From Yinghuangia soli (GTDB lineage Bacteria > Actinomycetota > Actinomycetes > Streptomycetales > Streptomycetaceae), in contig NZ_JAKFHA010000001.1 in NCBI RefSeq assembly GCF_021502675.1, positions 458,855 to 522,854 of the forward strand: a stretch of DNA of 64,000 nt, read 5' to 3'. Shown here piece by piece: positions 4,185 to 51,835 of the stretch. Every line of letters begins with the position of its first letter. Positions within the stretch are counted from its first letter, which is position 1. The notes under the pieces were generated by a model. The model made no database searches. It was not told where the DNA came from and was given only the letters and a program-made list of their open reading frames with translations. The translations under genes were made by a program, and so were the position numbers.

Positions 4185-5381
4185 ATGGACCACGCGCCGA
4201 GCCCCCCGCCGGAGGCAGCGGAGGACACCGAACCGGGCGCGGGTCCGCTGGCCGGCATCGTGGTGGTGGCCCTGGAGCAGGCGGTGTCCGCGCCGTTCGC
4301 GACCCGGCACCTGGGCGACTACGGAGCCCGCATCATCAAGGTGGAGCGGCCGGACGGCGGGGATTTCGCGCGCGACTACGACGACCTCGCGAGCGGCATG
4401 GGTGCGCATTTCACCTGGTGCAACCGCAACAAGGAGTCGGTCGCGCTCGACCTCGCCTCGCCCGAGGGGCGGCAGGCGATGGCCGCCCTGCTCGCGCGCG
4501 CGGACGTCTTCGTGCAGAACCTGGCGCCCGGTGCGGCCGCCCGACTCGGCCTGGGCGGCGCCGAATTGACGCAGCGTCATCCCCGGCTGGTGGTGTGCGA
4601 GGTGAGCGGCTACGGCGTGGGCGGGCCGTACGACGCGCGCCGCGCGTACGACGTGCTCGTGCAGGCGGAGGGCGCGGTGGCCACCGTGACCGGTTCGCTG
4701 GACGAGCCGCTCAAGGCGCAGGTGCCGGTCGCCGACCTGGCCACCGGCCTGTACGCGCTGTCCGCGATCACCACCGCGCTGCTGCACCGCGAACGCACCG
4801 GGCGCGGCTGCGTGCTGCAGGTCTCGATGCTCGACACGATCGCCGAACTCATGGGCTACTGCACGACGGTGGTGCGGCACGGTGGTACGCCCGAGGTGCG
4901 CCGTGGCATGAGCCACCCGGCCATCTCGCCGTACGACGCGTACCGTGCGGGCGACGGCCGCCATGTGGTGGTCAGCGTGACCAACGACCGCGAGTGGGCC
5001 CGCCTGGCCGAGCATCTGCTGGGCCGGCCCGAGTTGGCCCGCGACCCGGCGTTCGCGAAGAACCCGGACCGGGTCCGCAACCGCGCCGCGGCGGATGCGC
5101 TGATCTCCGCGGCGCTCGCCGCGCACACCGCGGACGCCGCCATTGCGCTGCTCGAAGCGGCCGGGGTGCCGTGCGGCAAGGTCAACTCGGTCGCCGAACT
5201 CGTCGACCACCCGCAGCTGACCGCGCGCGGCCGCTGGCAGCAGGTGGGCTCGCCGGTCGGCCCGATCCCCGCACTGCTGCCCCCGGTGGTGTCCGACACC
5301 TGGGCGCCGCGCCTGGATCCGGTCCCCGCACTGGGCGAGCACACGGCGAAGGTACTTGCGGATCTTGACGATCCGTCATAA
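4185..5381 (+). CDS. Family III CoA-transferase (CaiB/BaiF type)
   Basis: A 398-residue class III CoA-transferase that moves CoA between carboxylic acids. The N-terminal LAGIVVVALEQAVSAPFATR and DYGARIIKVERP blocks, RNKESVALDL, and the VPVADLATGLYA segment with nucleophilic Asp184 are all typical. ATG at 4185 is preferred over the in-frame ATG at 4179 because GGGAGG ends 8 nt before it and only 2 nt before the other. It is divergent from the GntR gene and shares its operator region, so it is probably the main regulated promoter. It would activate the pathway substrate to its CoA thioester. A 10-bp AT palindrome overlaps its stop codon (5379-5388). Confidence 0.92.
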   Translation: MDHAPSPPPEAAEDTEPGAGPLAGIVVVALEQAVSAPFATRHLGDYGARIIKVERPDGGDFARDYDDLASGMGAHFTWCNRNKESVALDLASPEGRQAMAALLARADVFVQNLAPGAAARLGLGGAELTQRHPRLVVCEVSGYGVGGPYDARRAYDVLVQAEGAVATVTGSLDEPLKAQVPVADLATGLYALSAITTALLHRERTGRGCVLQVSMLDTIAELMGYCTTVVRHGGTPEVRRGMSHPAISPYDAYRAGDGRHVVVSVTNDREWARLAEHLLGRPELARDPAFAKNPDRVRNRAAADALISAALAAHTADAAIALLEAAGVPCGKVNSVAELVDHPQLTARGRWQQVGSPVGPIPALLPPVVSDTWAPRLDPVPALGEHTAKVLADLDDPS

Positions 5382-47295: not shown

Positions 47296-47427
47296 GGCAG
47301 CGAAGCTACTTCACGGCCGTGCTGCCGCGCGTTGCGGGCCAGGGGCACCGGCACGCCGCATCGCGGTCGCCCTCATCGGAGACAGAGCCGCTCACACGCG
47401 AAAGAGCCTCGCCCTACTGGGCCGTGA

Positions 47428-47760
47428 TCAGCCAGTCACATAGTGACCGGTGATCAGAAGGCGCGCTTCGTAGTGCGCGCGCATGTCGGGGAAGGCGTCG
47501 TCATTCAGCGCCGCAGCTATGTACTGCTTCATCTGCGGGGTCTCCGGCCCGTCGGTCCACTCAAGAACCCATCGCTTGTTCCGGAACCGGAGCGTCACCT
47601 CGACTCCGGCGACTCCTGACAGCTGCGCAGCGAGGCGATGCGCTTGGACACTGCGGCTGACCACGAAAACTCCCAGACCGTCGGCGGCATGTTCGAGATG
47701 CGTGGCGAGCCTATCCACGCCGACAGACACAGCAGTTGTCCCCGCACACAGATCCGTCAC
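47428..47760 (-). CDS. Small hypothetical protein (about 110 residues)
   Basis: A mixed alpha/beta protein (VSVGVDRLATHLEHAADGLGVFVVSRSVQAHRLAAQLS, VTLRFRNKRWVLEWTDG, MKQYIAAALNDDAFPDMRAHYEARL). Codon bias supports coding. GTG at 47760 is the best start by conservation-like content, with a weak ribosome binding site. The domain looks like those of small streptomycete regulator-associated proteins; function unknown. Confidence 0.55.
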   Translation of the reverse strand: MTDLCAGTTAVSVGVDRLATHLEHAADGLGVFVVSRSVQAHRLAAQLSGVAGVEVTLRFRNKRWVLEWTDGPETPQMKQYIAAALNDDAFPDMRAHYEARLLITGHYVTG

Positions 47761-47906
47761 GCCGCGCCCCGCTTCGGGTGGCAGGTTCCAATACGTGGGG
47801 CCAGATCTGGGTGGAACCGTCCCGCCGAACCAGCGAGTCGACCAAGTACAGCGCTGTCCGTGGCGTTCATGCGAACGCCGACACCGGAGGCAGACTGCTC
47901 CGACGC

Positions 47907-48164
47907 CTACGGCCGCCATTCCTCGCGGTAGGCGGCGCTGTAGTCATACGCCTGGGTGAGAACGCGAAGGGCGTATTCCACCCCCGCCGAACGGGCATCC
48001 GTGGCATCCATGGCCTTGTGGTCGTTCGCCAGTTGCCAGATCAGGTCGAGCATAGGCAGATGGCTGTCCAGAAGGGCTTCTCCGCCCATGGTGTCGGCCA
48101 CGAAAGCATAGGCATGGTTGTCGTCCATGATGCGCCCGACGAGGAACCCCAGCAGATCGTCCAT
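47907..48164 (-). CDS. DUF6221-like small protein
   Basis: An 85-residue protein whose C-terminus (ALRVLTQAYDYSAAYREEWRP) matches the YR-D/E-EWRP ending typical of DUF6221 proteins of streptomycetes and their phages, and whose N-terminus MDDLLGFLVGRIMDDN also fits. It is shorter than most members, lacking the Cys/Trp middle portion. AGGATGAG lies before the ATG at 48164. Function unknown. Confidence 0.7.
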   Translation of the reverse strand: MDDLLGFLVGRIMDDNHAYAFVADTMGGEALLDSHLPMLDLIWQLANDHKAMDATDARSAGVEYALRVLTQAYDYSAAYREEWRP

Positions 48165-48727
48165 GCACTCATCCTGGCGCGCCGCGCTGCTCGGCCGCCC
48201 CCGATTAAGGACGGTGGCGAACCGGCGGGTGCGGATCACGTCTCGTCAGAATTGTTGTTGCCAGAGCGCTCAACGCGTCGTCGCGTTGCCGGCGCTCGAG
48301 ACGGAACGAGCCGAACGCCGTGTGGTCGCGAGTCTTGCGGTGAGGCTGCGCGAAGGAGTCTCAGACCACGAGATCTGCGCTCATGGTGATGCGGCCGTGA
48401 GTGGCCGGCATGCCCGCTCTCCGCATTCACGGCCGAGCAAACGCGTCCCCGGCCCCATCGCGTCGGTGGACGGTCCGCGGAAGTCACGGCAGTTCGCGAG
48501 ATCCGTGACAACCTTCAGGGTGCCGGCGTACTTGCCGGCCATGGACCGGTGCGGCCGGTTTCGTCTCGTCGGCGTGCGCGCCCCACCGCAGCGCGCGGCA
48601 GGTGCTCAGTGTCATCCATCGCCTCGCCCAAGGCCGCAAAGGGGAATTCCCTATTCCGCTGCCGGAGTTGCCGAAGTTCCGGGATGCTGGGCCGTGTTAC
48701 TGCACACGTTGTGGACCGGGGGCGGCA
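48165..48727. other. 563-bp region without a recognised gene upstream of the STAND gene
   Basis: Frames here lack supported starts. A small GCCGGCGTACTTGCCGGC hairpin lies at about 48521-48538. Codon periodicity near 48600-48725 in the frame of the following gene includes PCYCTRCGPG, which may be the end of a lost gene or an N-terminal extension, but GGGGG 5 nt before the ATG at 48728 favours the shorter protein. Confidence 0.4.
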
Positions 48728-51409
48728 ATGACGGGTGGGGAAAGAGCGCTGTCGGTAGGTGGCGACGCCATCGGCCAGTTCTCCACCGGAGACCACAACG
48801 TGCTCGTGACCGCCAATGCTTCGCTGGTGCAGGTCCACCTGGCCGCCCCGCGTGTGAAGCCTCAACGGCGGACGCACATCGAGCGCCTCCCCCGCCGCGG
48901 CGCCGGCCCTTTGGGACGCGACGACGAAACGGCGCTGGTGCTGCGCTCCATCGCGGACAACGAGCCCGTGCAGGTATACGGCGCGGACGGAATCGGCAAG
49001 AGCACACTGATCCGGCACGCCGCCCTCGAACTCGACGGCCGCGATGGGGTGGTGTTCCTCGACGGGTACGGGAAGGAACTCGACGACCTGCTTCAGAGCG
49101 TGTTCGAGGCGTGCTACGACAGTCCTGGCTACCGTCCGAGCGACGGGGAGTTGCACGCCCTGTTGGCCGACATCCGGCTTTGCCTGGTTGTCGACGACTT
49201 CGACGAGCCGAGTCGGCATCTGGCGCGGCTTCAGGACGCGATACCCGTCGGCACCGTCCTGGTCGCCTCCGGCGAGCGCACGCTTTGGGGACACGGCCAG
49301 GCGCTCGAACTCGCCGGTATCCCGCAGTCGGCGGCACTGCAGCTGTTTGCCGGAGAGTTGCGGCGTGAACTGTCCCCGGCGGACGAAGTCGGCGTGTCCC
49401 TGCTCTGGGAAGCGTGCTCGGGGCACCCCTTCAAGCTGTTGCGCGCCGCCGCGCTGGGCCGGCGCGATGCCGGAACAGGACTTGCGCGGTTGCCTGCTCC
49501 GGCCGAGGTTCCCGAGATCCTGCACGACTTCATCACGGCCGCGACCAGCGTGGAAAGTGAGATCCTCGGGCTGCTGTCGGTGGCCCAGGCCGCCGAGGTG
49601 TCGATCGACCTGCTGGCGGTTCTGCTGGCCCCCTCCGCGACTGCCGAAGCAGTACGTTCGACCGCCGCGCGGCTCGCCGCATTCGGGCTCCTCACCCGTA
49701 CCGACGAGAAGGTCAGAGTCTCCCCGGATGTTGTCGCAGCCCTCGCCACGGACCCCGGCCAGGACACGGCCCGGATCGCCGAGATCACCGGCCGGATGAC
49801 AGCGTGGGCCATGGCACACGACACGTCGGTCGCAGCGGTCGCCGAGCACGGCCCGCTCATCGCCGCCTGGATCGAGGCCGCAGGCCGTTCCGGTCGGCCG
49901 GATCTCGGAGTCGGGCTGGCCCGGGCTGCTGCTCCTGCCGCAGCCTGCTCCCTGCGGTGGGGGGCCTGGGGACGCATCCTCACCCGGGGCCTGACCGCGG
50001 CACAGCAAGCCGGTGACGAGCGTGCCCGCGCCTACTTCACCCACGAGACCGGCGTCCGGTCCCTGCTCACCGGCAAGCGGATCGCCGCTGTGGCAGCCTT
50101 TGCCGCGGCCGCAGCCGTCTGGCGCTCACTGGGCGACGACGGCGGTGCGGGCATCGCCGAGCACGGTCAGGCACTCGCCGACCCCCACGGCACGACGACC
50201 GGATCGCCGGGGCTGGACTCGGGCGCGCAATCGGCTCAGGGCGGATCCCCCTCGGCGGACGGCAACCAGGCGAGCGACCCGCCTCACCTCGGAGACGGAC
50301 ACGACAACGGCGCGGACAGCCGGCCCGGTTCGGCAGACGGCCATTCCGGTGGCGCGGAACATGCGAAGGAGCCAGGGTCCGTCGATCACGGCGCTGCCGA
50401 CACGATCCCGACACCTCGCCGCCCCGGAATCGACGGCCACACGCCACCCGGCGGAGGGGTCGCCCCAGGTGGCCTGACACTGACCGCCAAGCTCGTGATC
50501 GGCGTTACCTTGCTGGCACTCGGAGGCGGCGGCCTGTGGGTGCTCGGTCAGGGCGGCGGCGGAGGTGCCAAGCCCTCGGTGCCGCTGCGCGTTCAGGTGG
50601 CGACCGACGTCTTCGAGGTCGGTGCGATGCCCGGCACAACCGAGGGAACTTGCCGTGTCGAGGCCGGCCAGACCGACTGCACGAAGATCGTCCAGGTGGC
50701 CAAGGGAGAGCGGGGACCCGTCACGGTCGTGCCCGACGGACCCCTGCCCGCCGGTGTCGGCATCGTCTACTGGGGCTGCGACGAGGGCGCGGCGTCGGCA
50801 ATTTGTACCGTCACAGCGGACGCCGAGCGCTCAATATGCGTCACGACAACCAGTCCGAAGGACACGGCGGCCCGCAGCAGATGTGCCGCGCTCGGCGGCG
50901 CCGGCCAGGAGGCACCTACGCCGACCGCCCTCGGCACCTCGCCGGCGTCGATCTCGCCGTCCCCAGCGCCAGGCGGCTCGAACGCGGACCCGCAGCCCGC
51001 GTTCGATCCCTGCGTAATCCTGAAACCGTCCGACCTGCAACGCACCGCTGGATATCTGGCGGTTGCCACGGAGTTGGACGTCCGAAGAAACTCGGACCCT
51101 GGGAACAACGGTGCCGCGTTCTTCGCGCAATGCGCGTACTACACACCGCCGAATACCGACAACTCCGCATCTGTCGAATGGTCATACCAGCCTTCACTGA
51201 AGAACTCGAGCAGCACTGAATGCCGTCGGATCGACATCTCCGGCAATTCCTGGATCTGTCCGTACGGGCGCAACGTAGAGGAAGTCCGCGTTCAGCTCGG
51301 CAATGGAACCGGCCTTGTAGTGCGCGTCAGGCGGCAGCAGGGATGGGACTCGACCGGCGACATCGCGGCGGCCCAAGCACTCATGAAGATCATTCTCTCG
51401 CGCATCTGA
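48728..51409 (+). CDS. STAND/NLR-like ATPase with N-terminal amyloid-type motif, one membrane span and extracellular domain
   Basis: An 893-residue protein. Residues 9-27 hold SVGGDAIGQFSTGDHNVLV, like RHIM/BASS amyloid signalling motifs. Then a P-loop NTPase: Walker A GADGIGKST (85-93), Walker B CLVVDDFDE (152-160), VLVASGERTLWG (sensor-like) and a helical region to about 515. A Gly/His/Asp-rich linker leads to one membrane span at 583-607 (KLVIGVTLLALGGGGLWVLG). The outside part has about ten cysteines and ends in a DUF3558-like domain (FDPCVILKPSDLQRTAG from residue 759). GGGGG is 5 nt before the ATG. The next gene carries the same motif. I infer an outside-sensing NLR that triggers the partner by motif templating. 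Confidence 0.85.
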   Translation: MTGGERALSVGGDAIGQFSTGDHNVLVTANASLVQVHLAAPRVKPQRRTHIERLPRRGAGPLGRDDETALVLRSIADNEPVQVYGADGIGKSTLIRHAALELDGRDGVVFLDGYGKELDDLLQSVFEACYDSPGYRPSDGELHALLADIRLCLVVDDFDEPSRHLARLQDAIPVGTVLVASGERTLWGHGQALELAGIPQSAALQLFAGELRRELSPADEVGVSLLWEACSGHPFKLLRAAALGRRDAGTGLARLPAPAEVPEILHDFITAATSVESEILGLLSVAQAAEVSIDLLAVLLAPSATAEAVRSTAARLAAFGLLTRTDEKVRVSPDVVAALATDPGQDTARIAEITGRMTAWAMAHDTSVAAVAEHGPLIAAWIEAAGRSGRPDLGVGLARAAAPAAACSLRWGAWGRILTRGLTAAQQAGDERARAYFTHETGVRSLLTGKRIAAVAAFAAAAAVWRSLGDDGGAGIAEHGQALADPHGTTTGSPGLDSGAQSAQGGSPSADGNQASDPPHLGDGHDNGADSRPGSADGHSGGAEHAKEPGSVDHGAADTIPTPRRPGIDGHTPPGGGVAPGGLTLTAKLVIGVTLLALGGGGLWVLGQGGGGGAKPSVPLRVQVATDVFEVGAMPGTTEGTCRVEAGQTDCTKIVQVAKGERGPVTVVPDGPLPAGVGIVYWGCDEGAASAICTVTADAERSICVTTTSPKDTAARSRCAALGGAGQEAPTPTALGTSPASISPSPAPGGSNADPQPAFDPCVILKPSDLQRTAGYLAVATELDVRRNSDPGNNGAAFFAQCAYYTPPNTDNSASVEWSYQPSLKNSSSTECRRIDISGNSWICPYGRNVEEVRVQLGNGTGLVVRVRRQQGWDSTGDIAAAQALMKIILSRI

Positions 51410-51421
51410 AAGAAGGAAGCC

Positions 51422-51787
51422 GTGACAGAATCCCCCGGCGCCCGCAGCATCAGTGTCGGTGGCAACGCCATCGGCCAACTCAACACCGGCGACGGCAATG
51501 TACTCACAAGCCGACAGGCATCCGACCGCGAAGCCCTGAGCGCCTTCGTCACCATGATGTCCCGTGAACTGGCTGCCATCAGCATGGCAGCGGAGCACCG
51601 AGCCGGAGCACAGGCTGCATTGGCCGAAATCGAAGAAGCTGCCTCGGCCGAAGCAGCAGATCCCGGACGCCTGCGGGCCGCGTTCGCACGCTTCGCCTCG
51701 TTCGTTGCCGAAGCAGGCCAGCCTGCTCTGACGGCGGTGATCATGACCCTCGCTCTGAACCTCGGGGCGGTGGCGCAACCGAGGTGA
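51422..51787 (+). CDS. Small motif-sharing partner protein (putative membrane-active effector)
   Basis: A 121-residue protein starting 12 bp after the STAND gene, with AAGGA before GTG 51422. Residues 11-28 (SVGGNAIGQLNTGDGNVL) repeat the N-terminal motif of the STAND protein, identical at 14 of 18 positions. Residues 33-100 are Ala/Glu-rich helices and 103-118 a hydrophobic stretch (PALTAVIMTLALNLGAVA). This matches the idea of Bell-type effectors of bacterial NLR/BASS pairs, which carry an amyloid motif plus a membrane-targeting helical bundle; here the motif is at the N-terminus. The killing role is inferred. Confidence 0.75.
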   Translation: MTESPGARSISVGGNAIGQLNTGDGNVLTSRQASDREALSAFVTMMSRELAAISMAAEHRAGAQAALAEIEEAASAEAADPGRLRAAFARFASFVAEAGQPALTAVIMTLALNLGAVAQPR

Positions 51788-51835
51788 CCGCCTGTCGACC
51801 AACGTGGCCACGCCGTCCGGGTTATCGAACAATCT

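Follow-up and report, generated by a model that had tools for sequence, protein, structure and literature searches.

In most discussions, bacterial NLRs recognize phage proteins within the cytosol, and for the amyloid-motif NLRs found in filamentous bacteria it is an open question which stimulus they sense. A gene of Yinghuangia soli raises this question in a new form, being predicted to encode an NLR-type ATPase whose C-terminal part would lie outside the cell: could such a receptor read the cell surface and pass the signal to a partner inside? The window in which it lies is the whole stretch of 64,000 nucleotides that was analysed. A preliminary description of the window had drawn attention to positions 50,473-51,409, which correspond to receptor residues ~583-893.

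The receptor and its membrane segment

The receptor comprises, in this order, a Gly/Asn motif, a P-loop ATPase, a helical region extending to residue ~485, a polar linker, a transmembrane (TM) segment and a C-terminal part. An orthologue, 79% identical over the full length, is encoded on plasmid NZ_CP109155.1 of Streptomyces europaeiscabiei (locus L061). The features of the receptor gene in the window are as follows:

48728..51409, forward strand: gene for the TM-STAND receptor, 893 aa (open reading frame translation; ATG conserved in the plasmid orthologue)
48749..48811, forward strand: RHIM/BASS-like motif at the receptor N-terminus, residues 8-28, LSVGGDAIGQFSTGDHNVLVT (L061 agrees at all 19 aligned residues; matched by the partner motif)
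48980..49006, forward strand: Walker A, GADGIGKST, residues 85-93 (family alignment)
49178..49207, forward strand: Walker B, LCLVVDDFDE, residues 151-160 (family alignment)
49421..49429, forward strand: GxP motif of STAND ATPases, here GHP, residues 232-234 (family alignment)
50474..50548, forward strand: transmembrane segment, residues 583-607 (hydrophobicity, same-genome and family comparisons)
50579..50893, forward strand: proximal ectodomain module with six invariant Cys, residues 618-722 (alignment of relatives)
50894..50995, forward strand: Pro/Ser/Ala-rich connector, residues 723-756
50996..51406, forward strand: distal ectodomain, DUF3558-like, residues 757-893 (exchanged among relatives)

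The Walker A, Walker B and GxP motifs that characterize STAND ATPases are all present, and the Walker A Lys is kept in 10 of the 11 motif-bearing family members. By Pfam, the AAA_16, NACHT and nSTAND matches of the window receptor are all sub-threshold (AAA_16, 24.3 bits against a cut-off of 32.6); because the relatives at L042 (36.8) and L046 (32.9) exceed the AAA_16 cut-off, STAND (NLR-type) ATPase is a fair name for it. Within the helical region (residues 340-485), residues 400-485 have a TPR-like pattern by eye, and Pfam returned no match to superstructure repeats in this protein. None of the PADLOC defence family models fits the receptor over its full length, the matches being local to the ATPase (mad8, 2e-4; DpdH, 0.0098), and a search of the phage collection gave no match.

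The proposed membrane span at residues 583-607 is borne out as a single segment, the sole strongly hydrophobic 19-mer of the receptor being residues 589-607 (LVIGVTLLALGGGGLWVLG; Kyte-Doolittle 1.98). It is Gly-rich and of modest strength (summed Hessa 0.5). The same genome has 32 further AAA_16/NB-ARC matches, a few of them possibly in the wrong frame. A segment of comparable strength follows the ATPase in one of these (summed Hessa 1.8), whereas the others score at least 3.6, so that this measure sets apart the window receptor and its only paralogue (-1.1). Across the family, the summed Hessa value at this position is below 2.5 in 30 of the 33 sequences and 2.5-3.0 in the remaining three; loss of the segment from homologues, which the preliminary description had named as the observation that would speak against its proposal, is therefore not what we found. 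Its view that the design is uncommon holds for this genome, but family members as a rule have such a segment, and the motif-less branch of the family is widespread in Streptomycetaceae.

In this core branch (L009-L029, L031 and the own-genome paralogue L093), Arg replaces the Walker A Lys (GR[ST]). Its members have no clear amyloid motif and, past the TM segment, carry a Pro/Ser/Thr-rich low-complexity stalk without Cys. Among the Streptomycetaceae sampled, this motif-less, P-loop-altered branch occurs in 44 of the 61 genomes with any match.

As anticipated, the segment is followed by a Cys-rich region, the 285-286 residues past it holding 10 Cys (642, 651, 684, 693, 704, 719, 762, 802, 832 and 844) against four in the 583 residues before it. 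In the 15 residues on either side of the segment, family members have on average 3.4 K+R before and 0.8 after, with more before than after in 23 of 30 members and equal numbers in five. The flanks of the window receptor itself are unbiased (one K/R before, two after), so the topology assignment leans on the family, whose flanking charges predict an N-inside, C-outside orientation. Taken together with the conserved Cys and the occurrence of the six-Cys module as an anchored protein of its own, next to a lipoprotein-like gene (see below), this makes it very likely that the ATPase and motif lie inside and the Cys-rich part outside, as originally proposed. Measured against the plasmid orthologue, omega is 0.19 for the TM segment and 0.23 for the proximal module, indicating purifying selection on both, compared with 0.28 for the ATPase.

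A neighbouring gene with a matching motif

The start of a second, small gene lies 12 bases past the receptor stop codon:

51412..51419, forward strand: GAAGGAAG, from which ribosomes probably start on the partner gene (likely ribosome-binding site, from the sequence)
51422..51787, forward strand: gene for the 121-aa partner, beginning with GTG; N-terminal motif followed by a DUF5955-like helical bundle (next to the receptor gene, L061 has an orthologue and L032 and L034 have relatives)
51446..51505, forward strand: partner copy of the motif, SISVGGNAIGQLNTGDGNVL (motif pairing)

The receptor and partner motifs align with a score of 91, compared with a maximum of 45 among shuffled sequences, none of 2000 shuffles reaching the observed value. 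Indeed, the receptor motif is matched by an adjacent small gene at all 11 loci, the score of the locus' own pair being reached in 0 of 2000 shuffles at ten of them and in 8 of 2000 at L033. Motif scores average 61 within subfamilies versus 36 between them (11 loci). With its G-D-x-N-V core, the motif resembles BASS3/RHIM, a likeness judged against the BASS3 peptide VDLRDAKGVQVGDGNVQINRF, which aggregates as amyloid (PMC8086366); the L033 motif, VTIGDNNIVV, is RHIM-like. According to PMC7889193, signal transfer from an NLR to an effector through amyloid templating of such motifs is known from fungi and has been proposed for bacteria.

The partner scores 23.4 bits against DUF5955, under the Pfam gathering cut-off of 27.1. 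Its structural model (pLDDT 70) has four helices, with the motif disordered, and matched nothing in the PDB with E <0.6. The helices lack strong hydrophobicity (sum 5.4), so direct membrane insertion of the partner is not indicated.

Eleven divergent DUF5955 matches (L164-L174) are each preceded by a Gly/Asn-rich N-terminal stretch, for example GGAIHIAGSVTGNVQTGSHARAEY, and the sequences suggest that motif plus bundle is a recurrent architecture. We rejected the broader idea that a DUF5955 protein is always an amyloid partner, as the typical ones have no N-terminal motif and the Gly/Asn-rich stretch belongs to the divergent ones.

The small partner at sister loci (L042-L047) is 77-113 aa long and begins with motif A, which is the motif of the receptor there, while its C-terminus bears a further motif B (TVYTVxxGxLxIxx). 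These two-motif proteins lie beside sister TM-STAND genes at the following positions:

L042, 4622-4918, reverse strand
L043, 8903-9133, forward strand
L044, 4743-4997, reverse strand
L045, near 4450-4810, reverse strand
L046, 1323-1607, reverse strand

Motif B resembles the C-terminal motifs of two kinds of neighbour, namely cyclase-like proteins (so called by eye, with no Pfam match) and 'MATDLW' proteins; its support is weaker (0-130 of 2000 shuffles). From their sequences, these small partners look like bivalent prion-type adaptors. Crp-family regulators are encoded near the sister TM-STAND genes at L042 (7648-8385; cNMP-binding and HTH domains by Pfam) and L046 (9649-10341). With Crp-type genes adjoining the cyclase-like proteins, a cyclic-nucleotide output is possible at these two loci.

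A conserved proximal module and an exchanged distal domain

The preliminary description had treated the C-terminal region as one domain, leaving unseparated two parts that behave differently, a conserved proximal module and a swapped distal domain. In the proximal module, all six Cys are invariant in the five sequences compared, and its identity in the distant relatives L032, L033 and L034 is 58-66%, versus 41-52% for the whole protein. We read it as a putative module of the disulphide type; a profile search of the PDB gave no convincing relative (best E 0.4). The structure prediction for the ectodomain of the window receptor is poor (pLDDT 41), so no claim about its fold is possible.

Two other genomes (L048; L059/L095) encode the proximal module on its own, behind an N-terminal membrane anchor; the standalone protein has a TM sum of -0.1 and a basic N-terminus. 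At L048 (6098-12339) and L095 (4074-10283), the receptor appears in a split form, the anchored module being followed by a second Cys-domain gene and then by a large protein. The second gene has a lipobox-like VAAC signal in genome G485 (L095), and the large protein is nSTAND1-WD40 by Pfam in genome G151 (L048), its G485 counterpart resembling it at the N-terminus. The six-Cys module thus appears to associate with STAND receptors in two ways, as a fused part or as a protein of its own, and in the latter case its export is expected.

As regards the distal domain, the DUF3558-like end noted earlier is a real resemblance (PF12079, residues ~725-893; 22.4 bits, E 1.3e-4), albeit a distant one that falls under the Pfam gathering cut-off of 34.1. 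Profile-profile comparison gave E 2.8e-4 over 144 columns with a probability of just 18%, controls being at 0.19 or worse. The five DUF3558 proteins examined in full all have a lipobox-type signal; because members are lipoprotein-like in this way, an extracytoplasmic position of the distal domain fits. The domain differs by relative: DUF3558-like in the window, a second, similar Cys module in L032 and L034, and in L033 a stretch that is propeller-like by eye, with no Pfam match. The plasmid orthologue has an extra ~95-aa beta-type domain ahead of its DUF3558-like one, at the place of the connector.

The plasmid copy delimits the unit. DNA homology with it covers the following stretch:

48642..51799, no strand assigned: the two genes plus ~85 bp upstream, and nothing further (DNA alignment)

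As far as residue 722, the two DNAs are 89% identical (81-94%), and beyond it identity falls to 52-77%. Likewise, dS is 0.19-0.33 in the receptor up to residue 722, 0.49 in the connector and 0.71 in the distal domain, with 0.29 in the partner gene; the raised distal value comes from one sequence pair, the window and L061. Because the rise is confined to the distal domain, it argues for replacement by a diverged allele and not for fast amino-acid change, which suggests that the distal ectodomain was replaced as a cassette after residue 722. An old duplication followed by loss could also have raised the distal dS. Positive diversifying selection on this domain was ruled out, omega being 0.45 and dS itself being raised. 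Modularity of the ectodomain is well supported by these comparisons. In the plasmid record (WP_327349072.1), the annotated GTG start lies inside the motif (L061 6001-6028), and the start of the window receptor has its counterpart in an in-frame ATG lying 27 bases further upstream; the record is probably N-terminally truncated.

Conservation of the TM segment and of the Cys module, together with the exchange of distal domains, points to the cell surface, and the receptor probably senses outside the cell. Its TM segment and ectodomain might instead merely anchor a cytosolic NLR to the membrane or wall, the trigger being sensed inside, for example by helical region 340-485. Such tethering would suit the Cys-free stalk of the motif-less sister branch and the TPR-like residues 400-485, which occupy the usual NLR sensor position. 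However, two Cys-containing domains under purifying selection, the distal one exchanged, would be needless for a pure tether, and we regard this explanation as unlikely.

The receptor could also be a sensor of envelope stress or development rather than an immune receptor, controlling hyphal growth or sporulation through its partner. The prevalence of the P-loop-altered branch suggests housekeeping use, and the Crp-type regulator near sister loci is compatible with it. The window unit itself has a different character. It occurs sporadically, with a known plasmid copy, and GC3 is 0.81 in the receptor, 0.76 in the distal domain and 0.69 in the partner, against 0.92 in the neighbouring oxygenase gene, as expected of acquired DNA. 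In an empty-site comparison with a same-genus genome, the oxygenase alone aligns with the window. Sporadic occurrence, plasmid sharing, atypical GC3 and an exchanged distal domain are more typical of conflict systems, which renders a developmental role improbable. Separately, GC content is 63-67% at 47300-48800 and 50900-51800 of the window, with ~70-72% around these stretches, consistent with acquired DNA.

That the hydrophobic stretch is no true TM segment and the receptor wholly cytosolic, as its Gly-rich, modest character and the lack of local charge bias might suggest, is very improbable given the family-wide segment and charge bias, the conserved Cys set and the standalone module with its expected export.

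A putative outside-in relay and its relatives

The sequences directly display a gene pair, motif identity, a TM segment, Cys conservation, distal-domain exchange and purifying selection. Building on these, our assessment leans slightly towards a horizontally moving two-gene signalling unit, centred on a single-pass transmembrane STAND receptor and operating as a full outside-in relay. Outside, the six-Cys module by the membrane would carry an exchangeable distal domain recognizing a ligand or envelope state; the preliminary description had put forward surface damage or phage adsorption as a possible stimulus. Ligand binding would promote nucleotide-dependent assembly of the STAND ATPase inside, gathering the N-terminal RHIM/BASS-like motifs into a beta (amyloid-type) seed, on which the almost identical motif of the partner would be templated. 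The helical bundle of the partner would then produce the response: most likely, the hyphal compartment would stop growing or die, this being the least certain step. We infer amyloid templating and output by analogy with BASS and HET-s and, with moderate confidence, ligand sensing. More tentatively, extracellular recognition may be converted into amyloid templating across the membrane, with specificity supplied by recombined ectodomain cassettes on a conserved scaffold. Distal-domain exchange offers an experimental handle on ligand specificity.

In the openly accessible papers that we searched, we found no description of a membrane-crossing amyloid NLR. The closest relatives are the BASS systems (Dyrka et al. 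2020, as covered by the review PMC7889193 and applied in PMC8086366), which likewise combine, in filamentous actinobacteria, an NLR-type gene bearing an N-terminal Gly/Asn motif with an adjacent small gene bearing a matching motif. The window pair shares these matching motifs on NLR and neighbour, but its partner motif is N-terminal, whereas that of the BASS effector is C-terminal on a Bell domain, and the partner bundle resembles DUF5955 instead of Bell and has no strong TM helix. The window receptor further adds a TM segment and an exchangeable ectodomain, absent from the BASS descriptions consulted.

The iSTAND ternary, GAP1-N2 and EACC1/EACC2 systems (PMC7159879, PMC8195603) likewise belong to multicellular bacteria and centre on an NTPase or a caspase; they have TM segments, and their variable extracellular domains have been proposed to point towards the wall. 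They differ in their NTPase families and gene sets and include no NLR with a prion-like motif and a motif-matched partner. From the DUF3558 lipoproteins (PF12079), which its distal domain weakly resembles, the window protein departs in that this domain scores below the cut-off and is fused to a receptor, not to a lipobox signal.

In NACHT/Avs-type anti-phage NLRs, regarded as cytosolic sensors of phage proteins, the STAND switch is proposed to assemble on ligand recognition. The window receptor has a STAND ATPase switch as well but is predicted to sense outside, and no PADLOC model fits it. Membrane-linked STAND/NTPase systems and amyloid NLR pairs were thus already known separately, in silico; none of the openly accessible papers searched unites the two in a single receptor whose ectodomain is exchanged. 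If true, the outside-in design would give bacteria an equivalent of the immune receptors at cell surfaces, uniting Toll-like topology and RHIM-type signalling in one protein.
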